64,000 nucleotides of DNA from Glandiceps talaboti (Eukaryota; Hemichordata; Enteropneusta; Spengelidae): NCBI RefSeq assembly GCF_964340395.1, contig NC_135557.1, positions 6,953,216-7,017,215 of the forward strand. The letters run 5' to 3'. Positions 21,642 to 27,800 of the stretch are shown here, piece by piece; position 1 is the stretch's first letter; each line of letters opens with the position of its first letter. The notes beneath the pieces were generated by a model. The model did no database searches, had not been told where the DNA came from, and saw nothing but the letters and a program-made list of their open reading frames with translations. The translations under genes and the position numbers were made by a program.

Positions 21642-21843
21642 CATTGGTTAGTGCCAGTCATGTGACAGGTCACAGTATATATCATTAGTCCATTGGTTAA
21701 TGTTCATCATGTGACTTGTAACTGTTCAAATCTGTCTATTCCATTGGTTAATGCCAATCATGTGACTTGTCACAGTCCAAATCTGTGTATTCCATTGGTT
21801 AATGCCAATCATGTGACAGTTTACAGTACAAATCTGTCAGGTT
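21642..21843 (-). repeat. ~51-bp tandem repeat overlapping the IFT46 stop codon
   Basis: Four units begin with CATTGG at 21642, 21691, 21742 and 21793 (plus strand). The last overlaps the final codons and TAA of IFT46, so the array forms the start of its 3' UTR. On the IFT46 sense strand each unit can form a small ATTGG/CCAAT stem with a 6-nt loop. Confidence 0.75.
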
Positions 21844-24800
21844 CTTCTGTTGATTGATTGATTGATGCACCACTAGGTTTACCTTTGAGTGCATTATCTA
21901 ATTTGTTTTCTGCTGCAAGGCTTCTGAAATGCTGTGAAAACAAACAAAAATTAGTGTTAATACATTACATACCCAGAGTAACTTGACTATTTGTGTGCCA
22001 GGGTTGTTTTGCTACATTTTGCATGCCAGTAGAGTAGTTTTGCTACATTTTACATGCCAGAGTTGTTTTGCTACATTTTACATGCCAGAGTTGTTTTGCT
22101 ACATTTTGTATGCCAGAAGTTGTTTTGCTACATATTGCATGCCAGAGTTGTTTTTGCTACATTATGCATGCCACAGTTGTTTTTGCTACATTTTGTTGTT
22201 TTGCTACATTTTATTGACTGCTGCATTCACAGCTTGTGATTTTAAAGTGGAGATATCAGATGAGGATTGGGTATTTATTTTAGATTTTTAATTTATAAAA
22301 CAATTTCATCATGGCTTCCTACTTAGAAATGAATAGTGAAACAACATATGCCAAGTCCTTGTTTGTGACGCAATAAATTGCAAAAGGTTAATAAATAATA
22401 TGTTTGTTATTTTTCGTACAACAACAAACTTTTGTACACATTTTTTTGTTTATCTTTTTGCAATGTATTGAGTCACAAACAGATTTTGTCTAGGTTGTTT
22501 CACATTGAACTTCTAAGTAGGAAGCCATGATAAAATTGTTTTATAAATTAAAAATTAAACGTAAATACCAAATCCTCATCCAATATCCATATAACTATGT
22601 AATATCATTTTTTCCTCAAGTGGTGTGCCCTCTCGATCTTGTTACGTCTCTTTTGAAAAATGACTCAATGGAGATAACATAGTTGTGTATGTCATTGGTT
22701 CTTCAGTGCTCAGCATATGACTTTCTTTCTTTAGTCAACCAATAAAAGTGCATTGACCTAGTTGCATTATTTCAAAGCATTTAAAATCACTGAGCCAGAA
22801 AACACTAGTGGTACATGCAGGGTTTGTCGTAACTACTGTTCAACTCGTAGTGACAGGGTTTCGTAAGTCACTAGTATTTTCTCTAAGCTGAACGAAGAAA
22901 CATATTTAAAGTGGCCATATGGATGAGAATTTTGTATTTATTTTGGATTTTTATTTGATAAAATAGCTTCACTATGTTTTTCTACTTGAAAAAATAATGT
23001 CTATGTTCATAACTCAATAAACTGCAAAACGCTAAACACTTTTTCTATCTTTTTGCAATGTATTGAGTTATGAACATGGACTTGGTATATGCTCTTTCGC
23101 AAAACGCTAAACAATGTATAAAATGTTTGTTATTGTACGTACAATAACAAACTTTTTACACTTTTTCTATCTTTTTGCAATGTATTGAGTTATGAACATG
23201 GACTTGGTATATGCTCTTTCGCATTATTTTTTCAAGTATAAAAACAAAGTGAATTTGTTTTATCAAATAAAAATCCAAGATAAATACCAAATTGTTATCC
23301 ATATGGCCACTTCAAGAATAGAATCTAATGATATGCACAAGCCAAATTATTGTCATTGAACAGAAAATATTTGATAACATAACCTGGTTCTTCTACGTCA
23401 TGACAACCCATGTCTACGTCAGTTGTTTTGTGATGAATACCATAATTTTACCAGTGCCAGTAATACCATATAAAAATCAGGGAAAGTGATGTCATCAATT
23501 TTGAACATGCTGACTCATACTTCAAACACAGCAGAACCAGTGATGTAGACACGCACTGTTGTGACAAAGACGCACGTTGTGGTGATGTAGAAAGACCAGA
23601 GTATAAATTCCATATTTTTGGCTTATGCATGGTATAATATCTAATTGTAGACAACTTACTTGTGAATTCTTGAACTCCGAATAAAGTGTGAATAGGACAT
23701 GAAGACTTTGTATTTTATTTTTATAAATAGGGATATCTAAGATAGCACAGATCATATCAACATATTCAGACAAACTGCAATCCAACTCAGCTGTTGGCAG
23801 ACCAACTTTATTCAACAGATCTTCAAATTCTGGTGGCCATTCCTGCATCAAATCATCGATGTCTGGCATGGTCCTGAAACAAAATATTCAACAATAAATC
23901 ATCGATGTCTGGCATGGTCCTGAAACAAAATATTCAACAATAAATCATCGATGTTTGGCATGGTCCTGAAACAAAATATTCAACAATAAATCATCGATGT
24001 CTGGCATGGTCCTGAAACAAAATACTCAACAGTACATGTAAATCTAGAAATTTTATATTCACGTCAATGATAATCAACATCCAAATACACCCTTTTAACT
24101 TATACTGCATTAGTAGGACGTGGTTTTGATGGCCTATGTACTTCACTCAATATGTTACCCTAAGTTACTGGTTATAATCAATAAATGACACCTTAACTTA
24201 CTTGTTGTAGTGTACAGTAGGAGGTGGTTTTGACCGATGTAGTTCACTTATACTATCTATCCAGTTCTGTATTGATTTAGGATTCTTGTCGGCTTCTTCT
24301 ATACTTCGTACTTGGACGGACTTTGTTGTGGTTTGTTTGGAGATTGCTCTCAACTGAAGATCTAACACTGTTGGATCTGACTGCTTCGCACATGGTTCAT
24401 CCAAAACAGATAACCCAAGGGTACTGGGTTTACCATCTGGTCTGTTAACCTATCAAATTACAGGACCAGGTAAGAAAATAAAATTAGTCAAAATATGAAC
24501 ATGTCTAACTGACTTTTCATTTAAGAGTTTTTTTTTGTTTTGTTTTTTAACACAGGTGGACGTGAGACAATTGTGTACTTCACGTTTGACACATGGTGAA
24601 TAGACAAGAAAAATCTTTAGAATACATGGAAATACAATTAATCCTCACCTTGATAAAGGCATCGATGTCACCAACTGCTGGAATGAAATCAGGAATGAAG
24701 GGTTTAAGTTTGTGTTCTAGTTCTATGGTTTGTGGTGTATATCGTGTGATATACTGGAACAATTCCTTGATATCAGGGGCAACCGGTAGATGTTCATAGT

Positions 24801-27800
24801 CTGCTGGGTCATAGGCGCTGAAAAAAATGAAGTACAGGGGTTAAATTAAGGTGAGATTTAAAAAGAAACAAAGTCTTTAAAAGATTCAAATATAATATGC
24901 TATGATTTCACTTTAACCATAGTCTTGTACAAGTTGTAGTAAGACCATGGATCTGCATGTTTGGTGGTTGCTGAGTAAGTTGAAATAGGGCTTAAAATTA
25001 ACATTTTTTTACGGTAATCCCAATGAGCTACCAATTTCAGAAATTAGTAGCCCAAAGGATGTGACAATAGTTCTATATTCCTGAACTGAAAACAGAGTTC
25101 CTCTATTGGAAATATGTGTCTTACTAAAAATACTTTTATGTCTATAAATCTTCTATCCTTTAAATCATCACATAATCAGTGGTAGCCTGAGTGGGCTACC
25201 TGCTGCAAATTTTGGTAGCCCCATGTCAAGAATTGGTAGTCTGTGGAGTCAAGACTTAGTCTGTTAATTCAAGCCCTGTGAAAGGTTATGAGTACCTCTC
25301 GCTGGTTGTAACTAGTGTTTTCAGTGGTTACCTGAGTCACTTTTAAAGGTGATGAGTACCTCTCGCTGGTTGTAACTAGTGTTTTCAGTGGTTACCTGAG
25401 TCACTTTTAAAGGTGATGAGTACCTCTCACTGGTTGTAACTAGTGTTTTCAGTGGTTACCTGAGTCACTTTTAAAGGTGATGAGTACCTCTCACTGGTTG
25501 TAACTAGTGTTTTCAGTGGTTACCTGAGTTACTTTTAAAGGTGATGAGTACCTCTCGCTGGTTGTAACTAGTGTTTTCAGTGGTTACCTGAGCCACTTTT
25601 AAAGGTGATGAGTACCTCTCGCTGGTTGTAACTAGTGTTTTCAGTGGTTACCTGAGTTATTTTTTTAAATAAGCAGGTTAGCCCGATGCTATAACACCAT
25701 GTGTTTGTCTTCACGGTATTTCTAATAAAAGAACTTGGAATAAATAACCTTATTGTAATTCAAACTTCCACCTTACCCTTCAACAGTTCCTCCATGTTCA
25801 TCATCATCATCATCGTCGTCGTCGTCATCATCATCATCTCCAGAAGAATCTGATGCATCATCGTCATCATCATCATCGTCATCATCATCATCATCGTCAT
25901 CTTTGTAATGGGTCGGCTGTAGTTCTTTCAATTGACCGGGCTGGCCTATGGGCTGTTGTAAATACACATGGATTGTATATACAATTAGTAGAACATAAAT
26001 GAACAATGTTAGTACTACAGTAAAAGGCTAAACATTGTGCAGGGGTTAGTAGTATTACTGTTTTTTACTTCAAACCTTAAACTAAATACTAATTTGGGAT
26101 TTGCTTCCAAGAATTTCTGTTTTGACTCTGTGAGTAGAAATATTCATATACATGTAAGTAAGTATGAACTCAGAGTCAATGATGTGAATATTCATTCTCG
26201 AATTTCACGTACAAATTAATAACAATTTTTTTTTCACATCTTTTAGCTTTCTTGCATTGTATTGAGTTACAAACACAGATGTGTCTATGTTGTTTCAAAA
26301 TATTTTTTTTCAAGTAGGAAGCCATGATAAAACTCTCTAGTTTCATATCAAATCATAAACTGAAAATCAAAAGTTAATACTAAATCCTCATCAATATGGT
26401 CACTTTAAAAAGCCAATGAGATAAGTCTACAAGTTATTACTTTGTTGCACAAACATTAATCTGGATGTCAACATGGTTTCTAACTAAATCATGTGAGTGG
26501 AGGTGTAAATGGTAACGATACTGTATAGGAACTAGACTATGTGAGTGGAGGTGTAAATGGTAACGATACTGTATAGAAACTAGACTGTGAGTGGAGTTGT
26601 AAATGGTAACGATACTGTATAGGAACTAGACTATGTGAGTGGAGGTGTAAATGGTAACGATACTGTATAGGAACTAGACTATGTGAGTGGAGGTGTAAAT
26701 GGTAACGATACTGTATATATGTAGGAACTAGACTATGTGAGTGGAGGTGTAAATGGTAACGATACTGTATAGGAAATAGACTGTGAGTGGAGGTGTAAAT
26801 GGTAATGATACTGTATAGGAACTAGACTACATGTGAGTGGAGGTGTAAATGGTAACGATACTGTATAGGAACTAGACTATGTGAGTGGAGGTGTAAATAT
26901 GGTAATGATACTGTATAGGAACTAGACTATGTGAGTGGAGGTGTAAATGGTAATGATACTGTATAGGAACTAGACTATGTGAGTGGAGGTGTAAATGGTA
27001 ATGATACTGTATAGGAACTAGACTATGTGAGTGGAGGTGTAAATGGTAACGATACTGCATAGGAACTAGACTATGTGAGTGGAGGTGTAAATGGTAACAA
27101 TACTGCATAGGAACTAGACTATGTGAGTGGATGTGTAAATGGTAACGATACTGTACAGGAACTAGACTATGTGAGTGGTGTAAATGTTAACGATACTGCA
27201 TAGGAACTAGACTATGTGAGTGGAGGTGTAAATGGTAACAATACTGCATAGGAACTAGACTATGTGAGTGGAGGTGTAAATGGTAACGATACTGTATAGG
27301 AACTAGACTATGTGAGTGGAGGTGTAAATGGTAACGATACTGTATATATGTAGGAACTAGACTATGTGAGTGGAGGTGTAAATGGTAATGATACTGTATA
27401 GGAACTAGACTATGTGAGTGGAGGTGTAAATGGTAATGATACTGTATAGGAACTAGACTATATGAGTGGAGGTGTAAATGGTAACGATATTGTATAGGAA
27501 CTAGACTATGTGAGTGGAGGTGTAAATGGTAATGATACTGTATAGGAACTAGACTATGTGAGTGGAGGTGTAAATGGTAACGATACTATATAGGAACTAG
27601 AACATGTGAGTGGAGGTGTAAATGGTAACGATACTGTATAGGAACTAGACTATGTGAGTGGAGGTGTAAATGGTAACGATACTGTATAGAAACTAGACTA
27701 TGTGAGTGGAGGTGTAAATGGTAATGATACTGCATAGGAACTAGACTATGTGAGTGGAGGTGTAAATGGTAACGATACTGTATAGGAACTAGACTATGTG

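Follow-up and report, generated by a model that had tools for sequence, protein, structure and literature searches.

How is the correct 3' splice site chosen when four near-identical acceptors stand in tandem before one exon? The question is raised by a 64,000-nucleotide stretch of DNA, the window analysed here, in which an array of short repeats lies across the start of the penultimate coding exon of an IFT46 gene. All IFT46 features described below are on the minus strand.

Results

A tandem array lies over an acceptor of a single-copy IFT46 gene

The gene had been assigned to IFT46 in the original prediction, and a full match to PF12317 (E 8e-104) bears this out. Its five 3'-most coding exons translate into a single intact protein, which aligns over a long stretch with PDB chain 8bd7_D, named IFT46. 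These five are exon A, containing an Asp-rich stretch (25777..25952, from translation, with the acceptor placed by eye); exons B (24649..24817) and C (24202..24449, donor CAA/GTAAGT, the slash marking the junction), both supported by translation and by the PF12317 match; the penultimate coding exon D (23660..23873, 214 nt, with its acceptor at 23873 and donor CAA/GTAAGT after 23660), placed by its frame-keeping start and by the PF12317 and PDB alignments, both of which run through it; and the last coding exon (21821..21931, from sequence), which ends in TAA. The long Asp-rich stretch of exon A corresponds to a degenerate TCA repeat at 25798-25901, read as GAT and GAC on the minus strand. A PF12317 profile search of the 590-Mb genome gave three matches, all of them exons of this gene, and found no second IFT46 copy that would relax constraint. 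A 221-bp query also matches a single place in the 590-Mb genome, which rules out a dispersed element. No relatives of the IFT46 exon were confirmed among viral_contigs.

The array occupies positions 23850..24031, ahead of exon D, and is reported by TRF as a single array of period 46, with 4.0 copies, 97% matches, no indels and a score of 350. Read on the minus strand, each 46-bp unit combines 22 nt from the 3' end of the intron with 24 nt from the 5' end of the exon, with CAG/GACC at each junction, and the first exon base falls at 24011, 23965, 23919 and 23873, precisely where the four junctions had been predicted. Besides the true acceptor at 23873, this gives three decoys in the sequence: decoy 1, the outermost (24011..24012, predicted intron of 190 nt and exon of 352 nt), decoy 2 (23965..23966, 236 nt and 306 nt) and decoy 3 (23919..23920, 282 nt and 260 nt). 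The copies had been described as exact, and this is true of the core, GTTTCAG/GACCATGCC, common to 4/4 copies, but not of the rest of the unit: the exon piece of the copy at 23965 carries one change (CCAAAC for CCAGAC) and the intron piece of the outermost copy reads ACTGTTGAG for ATTGTTGAA. The latter change produces an additional AG (24025..24026, in GAG) at -15/-14 of the outermost acceptor, present in that copy only and flanked by its candidate branch point on one side and its CAG on the other. All four acceptors are alike in the last 13 intron bases, and all three decoys keep CAG. A four-copy array of this kind is far beyond chance; that some array should strike a junction is less surprising, because 21 merged arrays of period at least 10 cover 21.6% of the window.

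Only the exon-proximal acceptor maintains the reading frame

Among the four possible starts, the IFT46 frame continues, on translation, from 23873 only. Each decoy leads instead to an in-frame TGA at nt 65-67, located at 23945..23947 for decoy 1, 23899..23901 for decoy 2 and 23853..23855 for decoy 3 (the first base of each stop being 23947, 23901 and 23855). Depending on the decoy, 285, 239 or 193 nt separate the TGA from the end of the exon, and the coding exon at 21821-21931 lies downstream of all these stops. Use of a decoy would have the character of poison splicing, with translation ending prematurely ahead of a later exon junction. A premature stop with a coding exon downstream makes a transcript a candidate for nonsense-mediated decay. 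Sequence and translation thus confirm the proposed anatomy of three decoy acceptors ahead of the true one, all of them frame-breaking if used, and the expected in-frame TGA holds for every decoy. The supporting argument that 46 is not a multiple of three fails for the outermost decoy, which lengthens the exon by 138 nt, a multiple of three, and yet the TGA is reached all the same. Recursive re-splicing as a rescue of decoy use is ruled out, since the post-decoy joint, CAA/GAC, makes no new GT.

Candidate branch points and the choice of acceptor

As described in the excerpted text of PMC1431707, the first AG beyond the branch point is taken, with exceptions for AGs within ~12-15 nt of the branch point. 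Ahead of the array, a TTTAC motif places a candidate original branch-point A at 24039, -28 of the outermost acceptor, and from this position the first-AG rule would choose the outermost decoy; the extra AG of the outermost copy is 13 nt from this A, near the bypass limit. Since the first-AG rule favours the outermost decoy, correct splicing needs an extra assumption. The true acceptor would obey a scan to the first AG only if the branch point sat inside its own last unit, because an AG is present in every upstream unit. The 35 nt between the last upstream AG and the true acceptor hold a TTTAT motif whose A, at 23895, is a candidate branch point at -22 of the true acceptor, located at the joint of an exon piece and an intron piece. 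It is the one yUnAy in the 60 nt ahead of the true acceptor and, having been made at the duplication joint, it would provide the last unit with its one consensus candidate; yUnAy occurs in 49% of random 30-mers from the window, so that the motif alone is weak evidence. Under exon definition, with the donor at 23660 as anchor, the shortest exon would be favoured, of 214 nt versus 260-352 nt for the decoys, and this could account for the use of 23873.

Other repeats in and around IFT46

The intron that holds the acceptor array also contains, at 24070..24147, an older duplicate of the 3' end of exon C with its donor (source 24174-24248); it has decayed, and its local alignment score is 70. This score was reached by 0/2000 dinucleotide shuffles (maximum 52), and the best of 1985 random stretches of the window scored 48. 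By eye, the donor GT of this decayed copy appears altered. Altogether, 2/9 IFT46 edges are positive for boundary copies. A 51-bp minisatellite of 3.9 copies (21642..21838, from TRF, with the unit read by eye) covers the stop of IFT46 together with the codons just before it and extends into the 3' UTR. Within another stretch of IFT46 intron, at 25281-25664, we noticed six near-identical 64-bp units, several of them with CTCAG/GTAACC and GAGAG/GTACTC, AG and GT pairs that look splice-like. At one donor and one acceptor of a cytochrome P450 gene in the window, read by eye, no boundary copies were found.

Minisatellite cover amounts to only 1.9% in nine remote 10-kb samples (L012-L020). It is also high near the window (L002-L011) and is thus very uneven along the genome. 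C46 (17 kb), considered as a possible mitochondrial genome, was rejected, its first 300 bases being repeat-like.

Boundary copies recur at kinesin exons

The IFT46 array had been treated as a single case, a view that does not survive a survey of kinesin exons in the same genome, where boundary copies recur. The sample consisted of 80 of 142 Pfam kinesin matches, picked by hand, largely among those heading the list, without the near-identical clusters at profile 245-320. Kinesin edges are here the ends of Pfam matches rather than proven splice sites, and each was compared with its own flank; 5 of 160 edges were dropped because the available flank was shorter than 60 bases. Among edges of the first 40 exons, 5/76 score at least 39, whereas cross-locus controls gave 0/2964; this cut-off was chosen once the scores of these exons and of their controls (maximum 38) were known, and it was left unchanged for the second 40 exons, where 2/79 edges reach it and controls gave 0/3081 (maximum 37). 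Pooling both sets, 7/155 kinesin edges are positive and 0/6045 controls.

At the positive loci the repeated units comprise either the exon end and the donor or the acceptor and the exon start. Junction copies are present in 6/7 of them, at donors in L038, L051, L056 and L062 (a weaker positive, with a score of 39) and at acceptors in L035 and L104, while L095 (score 49) holds a remnant that is scattered and not cleanly tandem; L053 (score 33) was left uncounted. TRF, which was run on the first set only, recovered L038, L051 and L056 independently. The array at L056:498-816 repeats a kinesin exon end with its donor in ~6.5 copies of 49 bp, and of its five in-register decoys the two nearest keep GT and the three farther ones have lost it. 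At L035:110-360 the start of a kinesin P-loop exon has three acceptor copies, of which the middle one lost its AG (TTG) and the outermost retains it. For the IFT46 acceptor together with the kinesin cases, seven read in register, AG or GT is kept in 11/16 decoys and lost in 5, a count that omits L056 position 715 and L104 position 150 as out of register or chance.

Contigs C22, C23, C9, C11, C12, C2, C5 and C18 contain numerous kinesin matches at profile 245-320 whose scores are similar. Several of these matches stand in clusters, ~2 kb apart, which suggests amplification of a gene or element.

Exon edges compared with their flanks

Preferential targeting of boundaries by duplication is unsupported by these data, as 7/155 edges (5/76 in the first set) compare with 67/608 non-edge flank probes from the first 40 kinesin loci. 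After a simple-repeat filter, applied to the probes while the edges stayed unfiltered, 54/608 of the flank probes, which overlap and are not independent, are positive. Random probes in the window are positive in 24% of cases (22% filtered). Exon-internal probes gave 3/172 positives, in L035, L038 and L051, all of them loci with boundary copies. The boundary itself is probably not special, and the duplication process looks blind to gene structure, because edges are not enriched over the nearby flank. Arrays seem to form regardless of exon edges, to be nearly absent inside exons and to be tolerated at edges, a pattern that would fit a blind mutational process followed by filtering through selection on the protein.

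Discussion

Origin and effect of the IFT46 array

Minisatellites that lie across an exon-intron boundary have been named 'mirages' in lancelets, where the available portion of PMC3087553 describes them in globin genes of B. floridae and cites Adh3 as an earlier case. According to the same portion, the Adh3 data and the authors' own RT-PCR suggest regular splicing free of interference, although cryptic use of the copies as splice sites, or their recruitment as exons, is considered possible (PMC3087553). The excerpt of PMC3902484 adds PGBD5 to the mirages, cites troponin C, and mentions a gene model that annotates the PGBD5 repeats as exon, with no transcript support.

In our view the IFT46 array is, with good probability, a near-neutral minisatellite of this kind straddling the boundary, with the exon-proximal acceptor at 23873 being mostly used. 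A 46-bp stretch over the IFT46 acceptor would have been duplicated in tandem, and unequal exchange or slippage would then have raised the number of copies to four. The three outer copies are now intronic, and the spliceosome would mostly take 23873, because only 23873 yields IFT46 and no second gene copy was found. The array is probably near-neutral, with a variable copy number. The original prediction offered two alternatives, strong preference for the last acceptor or decoy splicing that tunes the dose of the protein, and the first is the better one, because RT-PCR on lancelet boundary minisatellites suggests undisturbed splicing; this precedent concerns other genes in lancelets, and the present animal is probably not Branchiostoma. 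As the copies are 97% alike, their intact AGs are a sign of recent origin and speak neither for neutrality nor for selection.

Dose control would mean that decoy use is itself regulated and that the premature-stop transcripts are lost to nonsense-mediated decay, thereby setting the level of IFT46. Decay is plausible, as every decoy stop is 193-285 nt upstream of the exon end with a further coding exon downstream, and the decoys share CAG and the last 13 intron bases of the true site. We nevertheless consider regulation unsupported here and unlikely, because arrays of this class are also found at unrelated exons, where some decoys are intact and others decayed, because edges are positive no more often than nearby flank, and because the lancelet cases are reported, in the published passages at hand, as splicing normally. 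The array could also be a young, mildly harmful allele whose decoys leak unregulated mis-splicing, and whose copy number is polymorphic or zero in other individuals. The high identity among the copies agrees with youth, the outermost acceptor retains a consensus branch-point candidate, and the excerpt of PMC3087553 gives 6 versus 3 units between haplotypes for the globin Gb6 mirage of B. floridae; against this, the intron still carries an older boundary copy, now decayed, so that copies of this type can apparently persist, and we hold a harmful young allele to be improbable. An inflation of the copy number by the assembler has some precedent, since a draft genome contained a misassembled lancelet mirage (excerpt of PMC3087553) and the numbers of PGBD5 repeats are unequal between two lancelet assemblies (excerpt of PMC3902484). 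Here, however, the array is just 182 bp long and lies inside a 26.7-Mb contig of a 47-contig assembly, single-base variants set its copies apart and similar arrays are present at several other exons, all of which makes an artefact very improbable indeed. The reading that we prefer is thus a near-neutral boundary minisatellite with 23873 as the main acceptor.

Implications for splice-site choice

Engineered duplications are the usual material for testing how the spliceosome decides between competing acceptors. The loci described here are repeated natural duplications, among them the acceptor present four times in IFT46, a cilia gene found as a single copy, and the kinesin donor present ~6.5 times in L056; they bear on whether exon definition overrides the first-AG rule and on how much safety is provided by the decay of decoys. 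We tentatively propose, as a generalization that may well prove too broad, that boundary minisatellites are common in a non-lancelet genome, at ~1/20 exon edges, and that the spliceosome routinely ignores near-identical acceptor or donor copies favoured by the first-AG and proximity rules. If this is true, each array is a natural experiment on exon definition as well as a stock of pre-made splice sites for intron shift or gain. Should the animal prove not to be a lancelet, such arrays would have a broader distribution than the published mirage accounts that we found describe. The interest of these arrays is moderate and resides in their recurrence across the genome, perhaps outside lancelets, each case being a test of splice-site choice.

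Comparison with known systems

The IFT46 array fits an already published kind, the mirage. Its repeat unit spans the exon-intron boundary (22 nt of intron and 24 nt of exon, in four copies), and the functional exon runs on from the copy nearest to it, at 23873, leaving the additional copies outside. As far as the excerpted reports go (PMC3087553, PMC3902484), the lancelet mirages in Adh3, Gb6, Gb9, troponin C and PGBD5 are likewise tandem duplications of a boundary, 5' or 3', often with AG or GT kept; in contrast to them, the present case has a 46-bp unit and is found in IFT46, probably in a non-Branchiostoma genome. The argument against Branchiostoma is weak and has three parts. At least 21 contigs measure 19-36 Mb, whereas Branchiostoma has 19-20 chromosomes. 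A GFP family search gave no match, and its controls likewise gave no signal, whereas Branchiostoma has many GFP genes. One tektin of this genome is identical at 213/284 positions to PDB 8snb (sea urchin) and at 165/284 to a chain of 8i7o (mouse), those two sharing 158/284, over three hand-picked aligned blocks; a second tektin likewise has 8snb as its best match, which would fit an echinoderm or a hemichordate. Within the open-licence papers searched, the named mirage kind was found only for lancelets, and the kind of minisatellite that it denotes may reach beyond them. A possible relative outside lancelets is the earthworm metallothionein clone Lr6F14, for which the accessible part of PMC12783039 reports tandem duplications of the fourth exon that are absent from the transcript. 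These are described there as exon duplications, whereas the IFT46 unit is short and spans the boundary.

NAGNAG tandem acceptors are also competing AGs near one exon start. Their spacing is 3 nt, versus 46 nt in IFT46, where each copy has a full tract, AG and exon start and where all the alternatives meet a stop. Intron gain by tandem duplication does not describe the IFT46 case: the unit, read by eye, has no strong donor, and the CAA/GAC joint is without a new GT. The AGGT model of intron gain, as outlined in the excerpt of PMC3443670, similarly relies on a short within-gene tandem duplication that supplies splice signals, but there a new intron arises from an exonic duplication, whereas in IFT46 an existing acceptor was copied and no new intron was made. 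The biology of AG exclusion zones, in the part of PMC1431707 that treats it, likewise deals with competing AGs near one exon start.
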